The notes beneath the pieces were generated by a model that worked only from the letters and a program-made list of their open reading frames with translations, did not search any database and had not been told where the DNA came from. The position numbers and the translations under genes are program-made. DNA of 64,000 bases from Vreelandella sulfidaeris (GTDB lineage: Bacteria; Pseudomonadota; Gammaproteobacteria; Pseudomonadales; Halomonadaceae), in contig AP019514.1 of NCBI GenBank assembly GCA_007182875.1, positions 3,100,001 to 3,164,000 of the forward strand, in the 5' to 3' direction. Shown one piece after another: positions 31,822 to 61,551 of the stretch. The first letter of the stretch is position 1. Every line of letters begins with the position of its first letter.

Positions 31822-32494
31822 TCCACCACTCCTTGTAGTAGGGTACAAAACGCACGGGCTCAAGCCGGCGTTTTTCAAAGGCACTGCCAATGCGCTTTAC
31901 TTGTGTAAGCCATTGGCTACCATCAAGCTCTTCTAACGGGGCAATCAACACCCCGTCGTGACTCAATTGTTCTAATAGCGATGTGGGTAGCGTCTGGGCA
32001 CAGGCGGTCAATAAAATCACGTCAAACGGTGCCACTTCAGGCCAACCATAACCGCCGTCCGCCACCGCTAACGTGGCCGGTGCCGCTAGTCGTCGCAAGC
32101 GCTCCGCTGCCCGCTCGTGCAGCGCACTGATACGCTCAATGGAGTACAGTTGCTCGACCAACCGGGACAGAATTAATGTTTGGTAGCCGGAACCCGTGCC
32201 CAATTCCAATACTCGATGCGGTGCGGCGCGCAAGACAAGCTCTGTCATGCGCGCCACAATGAACGGTTGCGATAACGTTTGGCCAAAGCCAATCGGTAAA
32301 GCGGTATCTTCATAAGCGCGATGCGCCAACGCCTCATCGACAAACAGATGACGCGGTTCATTGGCCATAATCTCCAATACGCGAGCATCGGTAATACCTT
32401 GTTGCATGAGGCGCTCGACCATACGGTCACGGGTGCGCTGAGAGGTCATACCGCGACCACGCAGTTCACCTGGGGAAATATCAGGCAAAAACAT
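31818..32494 (-). CDS. pcm: protein-L-isoaspartate O-methyltransferase
   Basis: Repairs isoaspartyl residues in aged proteins. Seen: [40 protein letters not shown] and the SAM motif [18 protein letters not shown]. After repair of a C run near 31845 it ends RFVPLLQGVVD at 31818, the family's normal end. An ATG at 32494 with AGGA upstream overlaps surE by 14 bp; the alternative is ATG 32449 (MTSQRTRDR). Between surE and DUF368 on the same strand. Confidence 0.93.
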
Positions 32495-37564: not shown

Positions 37565-38921
37565 ATGAAGCGCGATCTAAAGAGTGACTTCCAAGCGCAG
37601 CGTCAAGCTGCCGATCAAATGCCCCACCCGACGCTAACAATTCGACGTGACCGGTTAGCCCGCTTAGCGCGTATGACCAAGCATCATCGGCTTGAGATTA
37701 TCCGGGCAATCCAAACGGATTTTGGCCAGCGCAGTGACGTAGAAATACGAATGGCCGAAATCAGTGCTGTGGTGCACGCTATTCGCCACGCAAGACTCCA
37801 TCTATGGCGCTGGATGCGCCCTCGAGCAGTCAGCATGCCGTGGCGACTACTGCCTGCACGTGCCCGAACCGCGCCTCAACCGCTGGGCGTTGTAGGCGTA
37901 ATGTCACCTTGGAACTATCCCTGGAGCTTAGCGCTAATGCCAGTGGTCGACGCATTTGCAGCGGGTAATATAGTGATGCTCAAGCCCAGCGAACACTCGC
38001 AAGCTACCAGCGCCCTGCTTAAACGGCTGGTGCCGCAATACTTCACGCCCGAAGAATTCAAAGTGGTGGATGGCGATGTCGAGGTATCACGTCGCTTTAG
38101 CGAGTTGCCGTTCGATCACTTAGTATTCACCGGCTCTACCGAGGTGGGTCGCCAGGTAGCGCAAGCGGCTGCGGCGAACTTGACGCCTACGACACTTGAA
38201 CTGGGCGGCAAGTCGCCCGCGATCGTGGCAGGCGATGCGGATTTCGGCAAAGCAGCAGCAGATATTATTTTTGGCAAAGGCATGAACGGCGGGCAGACCT
38301 GCATTGCTCCTGACTACGTGCTGGTAGAGAGCCGCCATATCAGCGCCTTGACCAAGGCGCTAAGCGATGCCATTCAGCGTCAGCGACCCGATGACCACGC
38401 GGCCACTCATGCAATTAACGCGGCTCACCAACAGCGGCTAGATGACATGTTAGCGGAAGCCCGCAACCACGGTTGCAGAATCATTGATCACGGCCCCCAC
38501 GCACCCGCCCTGATTATCGACCCCCACCAGACCCCTGCAAGTGATGCGTGAAGAAATTTTTGGTCGCTACCTACCCGTCATCGGTGTTAGCGATATACCG
38601 GCCGCACTGAACTATGTGAATGCCCGGCCTCACTCATTAGTACTCTATGCTTTTACACGCGATAAAGGCTTGCAGCAGCAGATGCTGCAATTGACTCGCT
38701 CAGGGGCGTTGGTTTTTAACGCCACGCTTCTCCATCACGCAGTACCGAACCTGCCCTTCGGCGGCGTCGGCGAGAGCGGCATGGGTGCCTACCATGGGCG
38801 CCCTGGCTTTGAGCGTTTTAGCCATTTACGCGGCGTGTTTTATCAAGCTAAACGTTCACCTAGTCGTGTGCTTTACCCGCCTTACCGGCGCTGGTTAATG
38901 AAACTACTGGGTCTTGGTTAA
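37565..38921 (+). CDS. aldehyde dehydrogenase, coniferyl aldehyde dehydrogenase type, one frameshift
   Basis: NAD(P)-dependent aldehyde dehydrogenase of about 452 residues, the shorter class that ends soon after the active domain. Seen: VVGVMSPWNYPWSLALMPVV, KPSEHSQATSALL, FTGSTEVGRQVAQAAAANLT, catalytic Glu in LELGGKSPAIVAG, catalytic Cys in GMNGGQTCIAPDYVLVES, and a C-terminal NLPFGGVGESGMGAYHGRPG. The break near 38535 sits in TPASD/LQVMREEIFGRYLPVI. The C-terminal extension resembles coniferyl aldehyde dehydrogenases; substrate not provable. Confidence 0.88.
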
Positions 38922-39007
38922 AGATTAAGGGCGAATAACCGATATTTAATGACCTATTGGTAATCAAACCTTATGTTATATTTCATTAATTCTCTTCTTT
39001 GGAATGA

Positions 39008-39181
39008 AAATACAAGCCCCACACGGGCCAATCTTCGCTGGCGTATACCATTACTCAGCTGGCGCATAGCGTGGGCTGCGACGTAGTGGCAGAAGGCATC
39101 GAGAACTCCGCCCAAGCGGCGCATTTAAGCTCCATCGACTGCGAAGCCGCTTCTTTCGACTACTCACATGGAGGCCGTTAA
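39008..39181 (+). pseudogene. C-terminal remnant of an EAL-domain (c-di-GMP phosphodiesterase) gene
   Basis: An open frame of 57 codons without a start codon. It reads [20 protein letters not shown] then [20 protein letters not shown], which matches the ITxLAHSLGxxVVAEGVE...QxxxLxxxGCDxxQG end of EAL domains. The later GYxxS segment is replaced by SFDYSHGGR. No upstream EAL sequence is found in 38922-39007, so the rest is lost. Its TAA overlaps the hexR ATG (TAATG). Confidence 0.72.
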
Positions 39182-40044
39182 TGGCTCATGACTTACTTGA
39201 CCGCTTACGCGAACGTTTAGAAGAACTCAACCGCTCGGAGCGTAAAGTCGCCAATGTAATTCTTGAAGACCCTACGGTCGCCACCAGCCTTAGCATTGCC
39301 AGCTTGGCTCAGGCGGCAAGCGTAAGTGAGCCTACGGTTAACCGTTTTTGCCGTAACTTTGGTGCTAAAGGCTACCCGGATTTCAAAATCAAACTCGCCC
39401 AGAGCTTAGCCGGCGGCACACCCTACGTCACCCGCGCCGTGGAGCCTGGCGACTCCGCCACTCAGTACACTCACAAAATTTTTGGCGCCACCATCGCCGC
39501 CCTTGATGAAGCTCAGCGCGAAATCGACATGGCCGCCATTGAGCGCATGGTCGACTACCTCACCCAGGCCAAGCAGATTCACATTTTTGGTTTGGGCGCA
39601 TCCGGCGCGGTAGCCCAGGATGCCCAACATAAATTCTTCCGTTTTAATCTACCGGTGATGGCCTACATTGATGTACTGATGCAGCGCATGGTGGCCGCCG
39701 CCTGCCATACCGGGGACGTAGTGGTGATTATCTCCTACACCGGTCGCACGCGAGAGCTGGTGGATATCGCCCGCCTCGCACGGGATGCAGGCGCCGTGGT
39801 ACTCGGTATTACGGCACCCAACTCCCCCCTAGCGAACGAATGTACCGCTACGCTGGATGTCGCCACGCCTGAAGACACCGATCACTATATGCCGATGACC
39901 TCCCGGGTGATCCAATTAACGCTAATCGATGCACTGGCCACGGGCGTGACCTTGAGACGTGGCGAAGACTTTCTCCCTCACCTAAAGAAAATCAAAGACA
40001 GCCTGCGTGACACACGTTTTCCGGTGGAGAAACCCGGCAAGTAA
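39181..40044 (+). CDS. hexR: MurR/RpiR-family regulator HexR
   Basis: Intact, 287 residues. N-terminal RpiR-type helix-turn-helix ([40 protein letters not shown]) and a SIS sugar-phosphate-binding domain ([38 protein letters not shown]). HexR represses central carbon genes (zwf, eda, gap) in pseudomonads and relatives and is released by KDPG. None of those targets is adjacent here, so regulation would be in trans. Confidence 0.87.
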
Positions 40045-41210: not shown

Positions 41211-42897
41211 ATGCCTGCTTTCGATCATCGCAAATATCGCCCTGCGCCCCGTGTCCCCGCTTTCAATCGCCAATGGCCGGATCGTGATCTTGATCGCGCC
41301 CCGATCTGGGTGAGCGAAGACCTACGCGACGGCAACCAGGCGTTACTAGAGCCGATGACCGTTGAGCAAAAACAGCGCTTCTGGCATCAGATCGTGAAAG
41401 TGGGCATTAAGGAAGTGATGGTTGGATTTCCCTCGGCCAGCCAACCCGACTATGACTTCGTACGCTGGCTGATCGAAGAGGACCAAATTCCCGAAGACGT
41501 CACGATTGCCGTACTGGTGCAGTGTCGTGAACATCTGATTGAAAAGACCTTTGCCTCGCTGGTAGGCGCCAAGCGCGCCATTGTTCACCTGTATAACTCC
41601 ACCTCCACCATTCAGCGCGAGCGAGTGTTTGAGATGGATCGTGCTGGCATTATTGATATCGCGGTACAGGGGGCGACCTGGGTCAAGACCTACGCTGACC
41701 AATACCCCGAGATCGAATGGTGTTTCGAGTACACCCCGGAAAGTTTTTCCAGCACTGAGATCGATTTTTCGCTGGAGATCTGCGAAGCAGTAATGGATGT
41801 GTGGCAGCCAACGCCGGACAACAAATGCATCCTCAACCTGCCGACCACAGTAGAAGTGGCTGGGCCGCACCATCACGCTGACCAGATTGAGTACTTCTGC
41901 CAGCATATTAGCCGCCGCGACAGTGTGATTATCTCGGTACATACGCACAACGATCGTGGTGGTGCGGTGGCTTCTGCTGAACTCGCCTTGCTGGCCGGTG
42001 CCGAGCGGGTAGAAGGCACCCTGCTGGGCAATGGTGAGCGCACGGGCAACATGGATATCGTCACATTGGCGATGAATCTCTACAGCCAAGGCATCGACCC
42101 CGAGCTTGATCTGTCCAACCCCGATGAAATCATTCAAGTGGTTAATGAGTGCACCGGTATTGCTATGCATCCGCGCCACCCCTGGGTAGGCGAAATGGTC
42201 TATACCGCCTTCTCAGGCAGCCACCAGGATGCGATTCGCAAATCGCTCAAGCATCAAAAAAGCCGGCGAGCCATGGCAAGTAGCCTATTTACCCATCGAC
42301 CCGCACGATATCGGGCGCGATTATCAGGCGGTGATTCGCGTCAATAGCCAGTCTGGCAAAGGCGGCATGGCCTTCCTGCTTGAGCGCGACTACGGCATTA
42401 ATCTACCGCGCTGGATGATGCTGGCCTTGGCGCCTTACGTGCAGCAAGAGAGCGAAAAGCGCGCCAGTGAGCTTTCAAGCGAAATGATTCGCCAAGTAAT
42501 GTTCAATAATTTCACCCAGGAAGTGCCCTTATCACTGATCGATTACCAGCTCTCCAAAGGAAAGCAGGAAGGCATTGAAGTCACGCTACAACAGGGCGAT
42601 GAGTTGCTTCACCTGTCTGGCAAGGGCAACGGCGCGATGTCCGCGTTTACCGACGCGTGGCAACGCCATTCTGGCAGCAGTGTAGGGATTATTGATTACA
42701 GCGAGCACTCCCTCGGTGCCAGCAGTGAGGCCAATGCGATTGCCTTTGTGCAGCTCAATATCGATGGCCAGCGACTCTGCGCGGTGGCCGAGGATAGCGA
42801 CACCGTGAGTGCATCGCTTAAGGCGCTGCTATCCGGCATTAACGCAGCCCAGGCAACTGAACAGCACCAGCAGAAAGAGGCTGCTGTCGAAGCGTAA
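41211..42897 (+). CDS. leuA: 2-isopropylmalate synthase, one frameshift
   Basis: First committed enzyme of leucine synthesis. The N-terminal TIM barrel has [20 protein letters not shown] (metal-binding D), [15 protein letters not shown], and [20 protein letters not shown] with HxH ligands, then [20 protein letters not shown]. The C-terminal regulatory domain begins after [20 protein letters not shown]. The break near 42260 is in an A run. About 562 residues, the longer LeuA form. Upstream 41040-41210 shows no clear leucine-rich leader peptide. Confidence 0.95.
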
Positions 42898-44564: not shown

Positions 44565-45418
44565 TCAGCGCAAAATTAATACCGGCAACTGGGCTTTACG
44601 TAGCATTGCCGTGGTAGTGCTGCCAACCAATAGGTGACGAATGCGGGAGTGGCCATAGGCGCCCATTACCAGCATATCGATACTATGCTCCTGCTTATAG
44701 GTTCGCAGCGTCTCTTCCACTTCGCCCGCGCGAATAGCCCCTTCGGCGGTGTGCCCGGCTTCGCGTAAGGTTTCCAGTGCCCAGTTTAACTGAGAGCGGT
44801 TTTCAGCCGTTTCCGCGCCCACAATCACTACGTGGCAGGTGGCGCCTTCAAACAGAGGGCTCTTGGCCAGCATTTCCACACCTTTACGCGCAGTGTTGCT
44901 GCCATCGAACGCCATCAACACGTTGTGCGGCGCCGTAAACTGTTTAGGCACCATCAGAATCGGCCGGTGTATTTCCCTTACCACACGCTCAAGGTTGGCC
45001 CCCAAATGCCCGCTTGCCTGATGCGCCTTCTCCCCACGCTTACCCACTACCAGCAAGCGCACTTCTTTTCATTCTCGACCAGTGTTTCCACCAGGGTGCC
45101 GTTGCGCTGTAAGCATTGCGGGTCAGCAATGCCAGCGTTAATCGCTCGCTCTTTGGCGGTGTTTAGCAACAGGCGGCCTCGCTCACGGGAAACTTTTGCG
45201 TGCTGCTCTTCAATGTCAGAAAGTTTTTCCAACAGGTGCTCCCGAGTACCTAATCCTAAGTTTCCGGTTAAGTCGGGCTCGGCGAGCTGAGCATGGTTAT
45301 CCACGGTATGAATAAAGCTGAGTGGAGCATTTAGCGCTTTAGCGGCCCAGACCGCATAATCACAAACGCCTTCTGAAAACTGTGAGCTATCAATAGCGGC
45401 CAACACGCGATCTGACAT
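44565..45418 (-). CDS. double universal stress protein (USP), one frameshift
   Basis: About 284 residues made of two UspA domains. Domain 1: VLAAIDSSQFSEGVCDYAVW. Domain 2: PHNVLMAFDGSNTARKGVEM, ending in the ATP-binding type motif MGAYGHSRIRHLLVGSTTTA. The break near 45070 is in an A run. Closely similar to the second double USP at 48670-49525. Confidence 0.88.
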
Positions 45419-45585
45419 GAGTTACCTCTCCTTGAGCGGGTGCATTATTGTTATATTCTCCTCCCTTTTCTACACGAACTCATTGACGCGTGACACCCTA
45501 AAACGTACTTGATCCAACTTCTATCCTTCGTATGACCGCATGCTACACTTAGCGGCCTATTGAAGTGGGCGCCTGAGGTAACGGC

Positions 45586-48669: not shown

Positions 48670-49525
48670 TTACCGCAGTATCAAAACAGGAATTCGACTA
48701 CCACGTAGCATGGCCGTGGTTGTACTACCTACCAGCAAGTGGCGAATACGCGAGTGTCCGTAGGCGCCCATCACAAGCAGGTCAATGCCGTGCTCTTTTC
48801 ATAGGCTTGTAGAGCCTCGTCCACCCTCGCCAGCACGAATAGCGCCCTCGGCTTGATGGCCCGCTTCGCGCAACGTACTTAGCGCCCACTCAAGCTCGGA
48901 GCGGTGTTCCGCCGTTTCTGCCCCCACAATCAACACATGACACTCTGTGCCTGCAAACAGCGGTGAACGGGCCAGCATTTCCACACCTTTACGGGCGGTT
49001 TTACTGCCATCAAAAGCCATTAATATTTTTCAGGACGCTTGAAGGTTTTCGGCACCATCAGGATCGGGCGGTGCATTTCACGCACCACCCGCTCTAAATT
49101 AGAGCCAAGATGGCCACTGGCTTGGTGAGCGGTTTCACCGCGCTTACCTACCACCAGCAAGCGTACGTCTTTTCAAGCTCTACTAACGTTTCAACCAGAG
49201 CACCGTTGCGCTGGCGAGTGATGGGATCGCTGACCCCATCTTCTATCGCCCGTGCTTTGGCAGCTTCCAACATTAGCTTGCCCTGCTCGCGGTTTACCTT
49301 CGCACGTTGCTCATCAAGCTCAGAAAGCTCTTTCATCAGTCTTTCGCGGGCACCGAAGTGCAGATTACCGGAAAGATTCTGCTCTTCGGGGGCTTCGGAA
49401 TGATTGTCGACCACATGCACAAAGGTTAACGGTGCAGCCATGGCCAAGCTTGCCCAGGCGGCATAATCGCAGACGCCTTCGGAAAACTGGGAGCCGTCAA
49501 TAGCGGCTAATACCTGATCTGTCAT
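48670..49525 (-). CDS. double universal stress protein (USP), second paralogue, frameshifted
   Basis: About 285 residues. Domain 1: VLAAIDGSQFSEGVCDYAAW. Domain 2: ILMAFDGSKTARKGVEMLAR and MGAYGHSRIRHLLVGSTTTA, nearly identical to the USP at 44565. Breaks near 49170, 49025 and 48805. It sits 19 bp downstream of the SulP gene, on the same strand, and probably belongs to that operon. Confidence 0.87.
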
Positions 49526-49544
49526 GTTGCGCTCCTTGCGTTAG

Positions 49545-58825: not shown

Positions 58826-59911
58826 ATTCATTTACCCTTATATCTATACAAAACCTATACCAAAGAGAAAAGGGATAAATGTTAACCATTCAGCGTTTTT
58901 CATCTCACCATAGCGCCCTGATGCAACACATGGCCTGTATTTCCTTCACACCCGCTGGCATGATTAAAGAAGCGAGCCCTCCCTTTTTAAAAGACCATGG
59001 GATACACGCTTAAGGAGATTGCCGGCCAACATCACCGCATGTTTTGTGATGTCGCTGAGACAGCCACTCAGGCATATCAGGATTTTTGGCGTGCTCTTGC
59101 TAGCGGTGAAAGCCGCCAAGGCACTTTTAGGCGTATAAATGCTCAGGGTAGCGATATCTGGCTAGAAGCTACCTACTTGCCGATAAAAAATCGGCGCGGC
59201 AGCGTCATTTCAATACTTAAAATTGCTAATGATATAACGGCAGCCCACCAGGAGGCAGAGCGCAAAATGCCGTATTAGAAGCACTCGATAGCTCCATGGC
59301 GGTAATAGAATTTACCCCAAGCGGTGACATTCTTAATGCTAATCCAAATTTTGAGCGCACGATGGGTTATCGCAATGAAGAAATTACAGGCGCACATCAC
59401 CAAATGTTTTGCCCTACCGACTTCTTCCAAACCAACCCAAACTTCTGGGAACGCCTTGCCCAGGGCGAGTACATGCAAGGTAAGTTTGAACGGATAAATT
59501 CTCGTGGTGACAGCGTCTGGCTTGAGGCTACCTATAATCCCATCCGTGATAGCCATGGCAATGTGGTCAAAGTCGTTAAATTTGCCACCGATATTACTCG
59601 CTCTGTTGAAGCAGCTAATTCAGCGACACGTGCCGTCACGAACGCCCAAAGTACGTCTTCTCAAACAGAACAGATTGCACAGAATGGACTTAGCCATTTA
59701 CAGCGCGTTATGCAGGACTCTAAACAAGCGGCGCAAACGTTAGCAGAAGCGCAGCAGTTAATCGCCGCGCTTAATCAACAGGCGAAAAGCATCAATAGCA
59801 TTACAGAATCGATTGCACAAATTGCCAATCAAACCAATCTGCTATCTCTTAATGCTGCTGTAGAAGCAGCGCGGGCAGGCGAACAAGGCCGAGGGTTCGC
59901 GGTAGTCGCCA

Positions 59912-59920
59912 ATGAAGTGC
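59912..59920. repeat. target-site duplication, left copy (ATGAAGTGC)
   Basis: Nine bases directly repeated at 61305-61313, flanking the IS256-family element. Joining the flanks restores the chemoreceptor frame as VANEVRRLAKGS. Confidence 0.88.
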
Positions 59921-61304
59921 GAGTTAAGCTCAAGTCTGGTGTATGGGAGGAGGTAGGAAGGGTGGCGTATCCTGTTGATTGATCACGACCAAGATCTCAA
60001 CCAACACGAGTGGATACGCCATGGCCGATTCTACCCTCCGGACTCTTTCACAACCAGAACCCCAGGTCGCTGACCCGCTGCACGAGCTGCTGCGCCAAGG
60101 TGCCCGTGACCTGATCGCCAAGGCCGTCGAGGCCGAGTTGGCCACCTTTCTGGCGCAGTATGCCGATCAGCGGCTCGACGATGGACGCCAGGCCGTGGTC
60201 CGCAACGGCTACCTGCCCGAGCGCACGGTCCAGACCGGGATCGGGGATGTCAGCGTGCAGGTGCCCAAGGTGCGTGACCGCAGTGGCGGTGGCGCTCGCT
60301 TCAACAGCAGCCTGCTGCCGCCCTATCTGAAGCGAGCCCGCAGCATCGAGGAGTTGATCCCTTGGCTCTACCTGAAGGGGGATCTCCACTGGCGACTACC
60401 AGGAGGCGCTGGCGGCACTGCTGGGCGACCAGGCCAAGGGTCTGTCGGCCAACACTGTGTCACGGCTCAAGAAGCAGTGGGAGGACGAGCATACCGAGTG
60501 GCGAAAGCGGGACCTGTCAGACCGTCGCTACGTCTACTGGTGGGCCGACGGGGTGTACAGCAACGTGCGCATGGATGACCGCCTGTGCCTGCTGGTGATC
60601 ATCGGGGTCACCGAGCAGGGCCGCAAGGAGTTGGTGGCCGTCGAGGACGGCTTCCGCGAGTCGGCGGACAGCTGGAAGACCCTGCTGACAGGCCTGCGAG
60701 AACGCGGCCTGACCCAGGCTCCCAAGCTGGCGGTGGGCGACGGCGCCATGGGGTTCTGGGCGGCCCTGAGCAAGATTTACCCGGAGACCGACCATCAGCG
60801 CTGCTGGGTTCACAAGACGGCTAACGTGCTGAACAAGCTGCCAAAGTCAGTACAGCCCAAGGTCAAGGCCGACCTGCATGACATCTGGATGGCCGAGACC
60901 CGCGACGAGGCGCACAAGGCCTTCGATCGCACGCTGAAACGCTTCGAGGCCAAGTACCCCAAGGCGATGGCGTGCCTGGCCAAGGATCGGGAGGAACTGC
61001 TGGCGTTCTACGACTACCCGGCAGAGCACTGGGTGCATATCCGCACCACCAACCCGATTGAGTCGACCTTCGCCACGGTCCGCCTGCGGAGCAAGCGCAG
61101 CCGGAACTGCGGCTCCAGAGCGACGACCCTGGCGATGGTCTTCAAGCTGCTCCAGAGCGCCGAGAAGCGCTGGAAGCGCATCAAGGGGTTCAGCAAGCTG
61201 GAACTGGTCGTGAACAACGTCCGGTTCCAGGATGGAGAGCAAGTAACCGATCAGTCAGACAGGACTGCCGCCTGACCGCCATCCACCAGATTTGACTATA
61301 ACTC
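59921..61304. mobile_element. IS256-family insertion sequence, 1384 bp
   Basis: Ends form an imperfect inverted repeat of about 26 bp (left GAGTTAAGCTCAAGTCTGGT, right complement GAGTTATAGTCAAATCTGGT). It is flanked by a 9-bp direct repeat, within the range for IS256-type elements, and contains a single transposase gene. Its DNA is visibly richer in G+C than the host genes on either side. It has no passenger genes. Confidence 0.93.
60021..61275 (+). CDS. IS256-family transposase (DDE), one frameshift
   Basis: Mutator-like DDE transposase of about 417 residues. N-terminal DNA-binding part: [49 protein letters not shown]. Catalytic residues fit D near 175 ([12 protein letters not shown]), D near 239 ([10 protein letters not shown]) and E near 347 ([14 protein letters not shown]), with the [18 protein letters not shown] motif of the family. 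ATG 60021 ([11 protein letters not shown]) lies just inside the left end. An extra G near 60375 breaks the frame. Confidence 0.93.
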
Positions 61305-61313
61305 ATGAAGTGC
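61305..61313. repeat. target-site duplication, right copy (ATGAAGTGC)
   Basis: Identical to 59912-59920; the chemoreceptor reading frame resumes here. Confidence 0.88.
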
Positions 61314-61551
61314 GTCGTTTAGCCAAAGGCTCAAGCGAAGCCGTTGCAGAAATTACCCAGGTGCTTAAAGAGAATAGTGCACTAGTAGAACGTACAACCC
61401 ATTCTATGCAGCAGGTAGTCGAGCAAGGGAAATCGAGCCAAACCAGCGTAGGCGAAATTGAGACTATCGTGAACGAGATACTCACCGGGGCCCGAAATGT
61501 TTCAAGTTCAATTGAGCAATTAGCGCTGGAATCCCCACGATGAGCCAATAA

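Follow-up and report, generated by a model that had tools for sequence, protein, structure and literature searches.

The short open reading frame at positions 39008-39181, immediately upstream of hexR in the 64,000-nucleotide stretch of Vreelandella sulfidaeris DNA analysed here (the window; the parts of the locus from the aldehyde dehydrogenase gene to hexR lie on its forward strand), is very probably the scar left by deletion of a pair of genes, one for a histidine kinase and the other for a likely c-di-GMP phosphodiesterase. The ancestral order would have been an aldehyde dehydrogenase gene, then, overlapping one another, a hybrid kinase gene (GAF-GAF-HisKA-HATPase-REC), a response-regulator gene (REC-GGDEF-EAL) and hexR. 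One deletion would have taken the kinase from about its sixth codon and the greater part of the response regulator; a further two, smaller and at short direct repeats (90 and 71 bp), would have trimmed the remainder of the regulator. Because what lay upstream of the kinase gene is still there, as is the ribosome-binding site of hexR, transcription of hexR would now probably begin at the former operon start and read through the scar as a leader. The scar is seen in one assembly, and the genomes compared with it below (denoted by G numbers) are of other species.

Three junctions upstream of hexR

The frame has no ATG and its closing TAA overlaps the hexR ATG at 39181 (TAATG). The first-pass annotation took it for the tail of an EAL-domain phosphodiesterase directly abutting hexR, and the tail is real. 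Its peptide (the frame plus the four residues that precede its upstream stop) matches Pfam PF00563 (EAL) at profile positions 190-227 of 236 with E 3.1e-6 and 27.2 bits, below the gathering cut-off of 31.3 that a full EAL domain would pass; the second-best match to the peptide in its own genome has 44% identity (E 4e-4). The catalytic motifs of EAL domains are ExLxR, TE, DDFGTG and AEGIE; of these, the window has kept no more than AEGIE and the TG of DDFGTG. At the DNA level the remnant is 82-88% identical over 113 bp to seven of ten relatives in which the locus is intact and 76-78% identical over 104-110 bp to the other three, and so is no chance resemblance.

Read from left to right, the scar is collinear with the intact locus and interrupted by internal deletions at three junctions. 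The ancestral upstream neighbour, the aldehyde dehydrogenase gene, occupies 37565-38921 and is split near 38530-38545 by a one-base indel, an extra base relative to four relatives (the fourth alignment being partial); its two ORFs, 37565-38551 and 38541-38921, each match Pfam Aldedh. The segment that follows (38922-39003) aligns with the region upstream of the kinase in 19 intact relatives and is probably the old operon promoter. The next 18 nucleotides (39004-39021: ATG AAA ATA CAA GCC CCA) are homologous to the kinase starts of relatives, so that the EAL-derived part of the frame begins only at about 39022 and what precedes it belongs to another gene. Deletion A (~3.66-4.03 kb) comes before a first EAL scrap at 39022-39046 (TGQSSLAY, corresponding to residues 480-487 of the 588-residue G005 response regulator), which is found as a separate blastn match of 25-26 bp at 88-92% identity in four of ten intact relatives (E 7e-6 against G017). 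Junction B, at 39038-39047, lies in an imperfect 10-bp repeat, CTGGCGTATA, where overlapping matches stand 90 bp apart and 30 codons are missing. It leads to a second scrap at 39047-39151 (residues 518-552), which carries the Pfam EAL match and the DNA identity to the ten intact relatives. At junction C (39143-39150) the repeat is GAAGCCGC, the overlapping matches are 71 bp apart and the corresponding 71 bp are missing, out of frame. The end of the response-regulator gene (39151-39180), with the hexR ribosome-binding site GGAGG at 39170-39174, again aligns with relatives.

The same succession is seen when the window is set against G017 alone: a continuous match runs from the aldehyde dehydrogenase through the intergenic region into the kinase start (to ~39021-39024), jumps ~3.66 kb to a 26-bp EAL piece (92%), jumps 90 bp at the first repeat to a 113-bp EAL piece (85%) and 71 bp at the second repeat to the hexR-proximal end. 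(With G020 as the reference, whose kinase is longer, the first jump grows to ~4.03 kb.)

Jump B preserves the reading frame and jump C does not: tblastn places regulator residues 515-552 in one frame and residues 574-588 in another, and it is this second, native tail frame that continues into hexR, in the window as in relatives. The final nine codons ahead of TAATG (SFDYSHGGR) are thus out of the native frame, and the closing TAATG is not a preserved C-terminus. Reading from the kinase ATG at 39004 does not give the EAL frame either, and meets a stop at 39069. The first-pass annotation had regarded the frame as preserved; with the out-of-frame 71-bp deletion and a kinase start codon in another frame, this is not supported.

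The intact locus and its repeated loss

Relatives were found by DNA search of 58 genomes and then of 82 genomes of the genus (those with names are Vreelandella or Halomonas). All 82 have hexR, in G084 as two pieces. In the hexR upstream regions of the 81 other genomes, the aldehyde dehydrogenase, kinase and response regulator were placed by tblastn. A REC-GGDEF-EAL gene, whole or nearly whole, lies upstream of hexR in 67 of the 82 genomes, at the same place as the scraps in the window, and a hybrid histidine kinase precedes it in 66; both are lost in 15, the window included. (A contig end truncates the kinase of G084. In G002, locus L196, 7880-9640, a response regulator of 56% identity adjoins hexR and there is no kinase match upstream.) V. 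boliviensis LC1 (G061), V. maris QX-1 (G020) and V. neptunia HM116 (G031) are among the species with the intact locus. In contrast to these, the window lacks the body of the kinase and ~90% of the response regulator, with what is left collinear.

A full EAL gene before hexR in so many relatives points to its deletion in the window, as the first-pass annotation had proposed. That proposal stands in so far as an EAL gene was lost; the loss was not of one gene, since the kinase start also lies within the scar, but of the kinase and the response regulator together. Relocation of the pair is likewise rejected, no close orthologue of either gene having been found elsewhere in the assembly: the best-scoring other match to the regulator is 35% identical (short pieces reach at most 47%) and that to the kinase 32% (with a piece at 39%).

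The domains of the lost proteins are read from G005, where Pfam finds GAF, GAF, HisKA, HATPase and REC in the kinase and REC, GGDEF and EAL in the regulator. Of the 83 rows (the 82 genomes, one of them split in two), 63 supplied an intact regulator gene for analysis; G002, the 15 loss genomes, both G084 pieces (contig ends) and G074 and G070 (several frames) were set aside. All 63 keep the four EAL catalytic patterns and none has a GG[DE]EF pattern, indicating that the protein is probably a phosphodiesterase rather than a cyclase; it would probably act on c-di-GMP and be controlled by phosphorylation. The genes are tightly packed: those of the kinase and the regulator share 4 nt in 52 of the 63, and in 59 the end of the regulator gene runs into the start of hexR (by 11 nt in 30 genes, by 1 nt, which gives TAATG, in 22, by 20 nt in five and by 49 nt in two). 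The overlap of the preceding stop with the start of hexR is therefore ancestral and ordinary. Among 151 genomes drawn from the family, 46 match the regulator at E ≤1e-100, 22 of them within the genus; hexR was found at none of 14 regulator loci in other genera within ~1.7-1.9 kb past the regulator, so that, within this sample, the link to hexR looks particular to the genus.

A hexR tree was built from 81 rows (the two pieces of G084 were too short to include, and G002 was left out of the count). On it, presence and absence of the pair require a minimum of 12 changes, with 12 loss lineages: the window, G093, G008+G028, G095, G063, G004+G021, G011, G101+G090, G016, G018, G009 and G097. Several of their placings are weakly supported. 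The G016 and G018 scars match on both sides and have like end points, and the data do not reject a tree in which the two are constrained to group (p 0.18); a single loss may account for both, and the total is therefore given as 10 to 12. (G011 and G101/G090 have similar ends on the aldehyde dehydrogenase side, but the tree that joins them is rejected, p 0.012.) Judged from this tree, the kinase-regulator pair has been lost 10 to 12 separate times in the genus. The loss genomes include V. titanicae BH1 (G008) and V. sedimenti QX-2 (G028). In V. titanicae BH1, G093, G095, G063, G004/G021, G016 and G018 the pair is gone, as in the window, and hexR and its ribosome-binding site are kept; their breakpoints differ from those of the window, which makes them separate events. 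In G093 (L088) the body of the aldehyde dehydrogenase upstream of hexR is gone as well, and what is left of its start continues into decayed EAL scraps that contain a stop.

Repeated, independent removal of the pair from a shared transcription unit might be adaptive, leaving hexR under the former operon control, re-setting the control of sugar metabolism and removing a c-di-GMP input, but we think this quite unlikely. General capture of a promoter by hexR in these losses was considered and rejected. The end of the matched upstream part was measured in each case against a chosen intact relative. In the window the match extends into the kinase codons; elsewhere it stops short of the kinase start by 8 bp (G095), 34-42 bp (G004/G021), 54-59 bp (G063), 81 bp (G097), 96 bp (G011), 112 bp (G101/G090), 124 bp (G016), 144 bp (G018) and 220 bp (G009). 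For G008/G028 the distance is 85 bp with V. boliviensis LC1 as the reference, but against the window the match continues.

The accessible portions of the open-licence literature on HexR and on Halomonas/Vreelandella contain no description of the kinase-regulator-hexR locus, and those of two accounts of HexR (PMC6531821, PMC12844025) do not describe such an arrangement of genes. What began as an odd EAL fragment is a clear case of gene decay in a genus in which hexR usually comes last in a row of closely overlapping genes, after those for a sensor kinase and a probable c-di-GMP phosphodiesterase, a pair that is dispensable and has been lost repeatedly. A possible link between c-di-GMP signalling and the regulator of the Entner-Doudoroff pathway would be testable in the species with the full row.

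The remnant and the expression of hexR

HexR proteins belong to the RpiR family, regulate the Entner-Doudoroff pathway and bind KDPG. The window's hexR (39181-40044) is intact, with the RpiR-type helix-turn-helix and SIS domains of that family (Pfam HTH_6, 1.2e-25; SIS, 4.6e-24), and its product is 98% identical to that of G017, in a single piece. The HexR operator consensus is given as TTGT-N7-8-ACAA in PMC6531821. A scan of the window for it yields one site, at 31833, which is at chance level, and none at the hexR locus.

Could the remnant still be translated, its ribosomes re-initiating at hexR by way of TAATG, with the frame held open by selection? The first-pass annotation had raised something of this kind as one possibility, that the remnant feeds hexR. 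Coupling through overlapping stop and start codons is ancestral at this locus, as the 59 of 63 intact genes attest; most changes in the EAL-derived codons fall at third positions; deletion B preserves the frame; and the remnants of G095 and G016 still have an open native tail frame. Against these points, the frame in the window has no ATG, the kinase ATG belongs to a different frame that closes at 39069, deletion C shifts the frame, and a GGAGG of its own precedes hexR. (A GGA within 16 nt of the hexR start is found in all 82 rows.) Stops or frame changes mark the remnant of the window and also those of G093, G063, G004/G021, G101/G090, G018 and G097, most of the other loss lineages with a remnant; in G009, G011 and G008/G028 just 9-13 residues match, and weakly. 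No positive evidence for the proposal was found, selection for the frame is rejected, and we regard translation of the remnant with re-initiation at hexR as very unlikely.

The retained tail might alternatively serve as a promoter of hexR, or as some other conserved control element, since ~60 bp or more of the regulator end beside hexR is kept in ten of the 12 loss lineages. The other two (G008/G028 and G011), however, retain merely 14-15 bp, as judged by DNA match, and a scan for the sigma-70 consensus found no match in the scar or the region upstream of it. Fourfold-site diversity in the 63 intact genes is, moreover, flat (0.55-0.62 in five blocks of 20 columns, mean 0.58) and drops only in the last eleven or so codons, which directly follow these blocks (0.37 over seven sites, 0.1 at one). 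Nothing in it hints that the tail contains a conserved promoter; the ribosome-binding site alone stands out there. A conserved promoter is rejected by that scan, and retention of the tail for control of hexR is highly improbable.

The preferred reading, then, is that the scar is ordinary gene decay, for which any remaining function is unlikely. The loss in the window is probably recent, as the first-pass annotation had suggested, to judge from the pattern of codon changes. Compared with 16 intact relatives over 43 codons (three of the 19 relatives were skipped), the remnant differs at 2-6 of 86 first and second positions and at 14-23 of 43 third positions. In the hexR tree the window's end branch has a length of 0.092 changes per site, mostly at third positions, and we estimate that a remnant free of constraint over that whole branch would have about twenty or more changes at the 86 positions. 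The small number found suggests that most of the divergence arose while the gene still worked. (Continued selection on the remnant would also fit.) Four codons are new in comparison with all 19 relatives, two of them synonymous and two replacing invariant residues (Y to H and G to D); in a leave-one-out control, one or two such novelties also turn up in four of the 19 intact relatives, so two replacements are not exceptional.

Assembly quality and other damaged genes

The assembly has a completeness of 74.6 and a contamination of 5.9, and genes of the window are often broken: of 33 G017 ORFs of at least 200 residues that match it, 21 do so in several pieces (17472-63491). (The 21 include two paralogues that match each other, the remnant itself and a gene with an insertion.) G074, at 86% complete and 6% contaminated, shows the same splitting at its hexR locus. 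The window-G017 alignment has 119 one-base and 13 three-base gaps, or 2.8 one-base gaps per kb, but seven control pairs of relatives compared over 5-6.6 kb span 0.36-3.12 per kb, so that the gap count alone is no mark of sequencing errors. Either sequencing error or decay may have caused the splitting; our tentative reading is that it is mainly sequencing error. Exact statements about single-base frames are accordingly uncertain here, and the splits of the aldehyde dehydrogenase gene and of the gene at 41211-42897, in a window in which splitting is so widespread, are no evidence of loss.

These properties bear on the suspicion that the deletions themselves are artefacts of assembly and that the real genome has the full genes. 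The low completeness, the contamination and the broken ORFs speak for it, and the splitting has led us to weight it up slightly. Nevertheless, three collinear junctions fall within 150 bp, two of them at short direct repeats, the same pair is lost at the same locus in 14 other genomes, and no copy of the pair was found elsewhere in the assembly. An artefact is, in our judgement, extremely improbable, and we retain the reading of the locus as a genuine deletion scar.

A second biofilm-related gene had also been described as damaged. This is confirmed in part: a BdlA-like PAS-PAS-MCP gene (59296-61534) is interrupted, between ~59964 and 61298, by an insertion of ~1.3 kb with a transposase of the Mutator family (PF00872), which is itself in two frames. 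The window also contains two paralogous genes some 4 kb apart, at 44568-45436 and 48673-49534, each of which is matched by both of two G017 ORFs.
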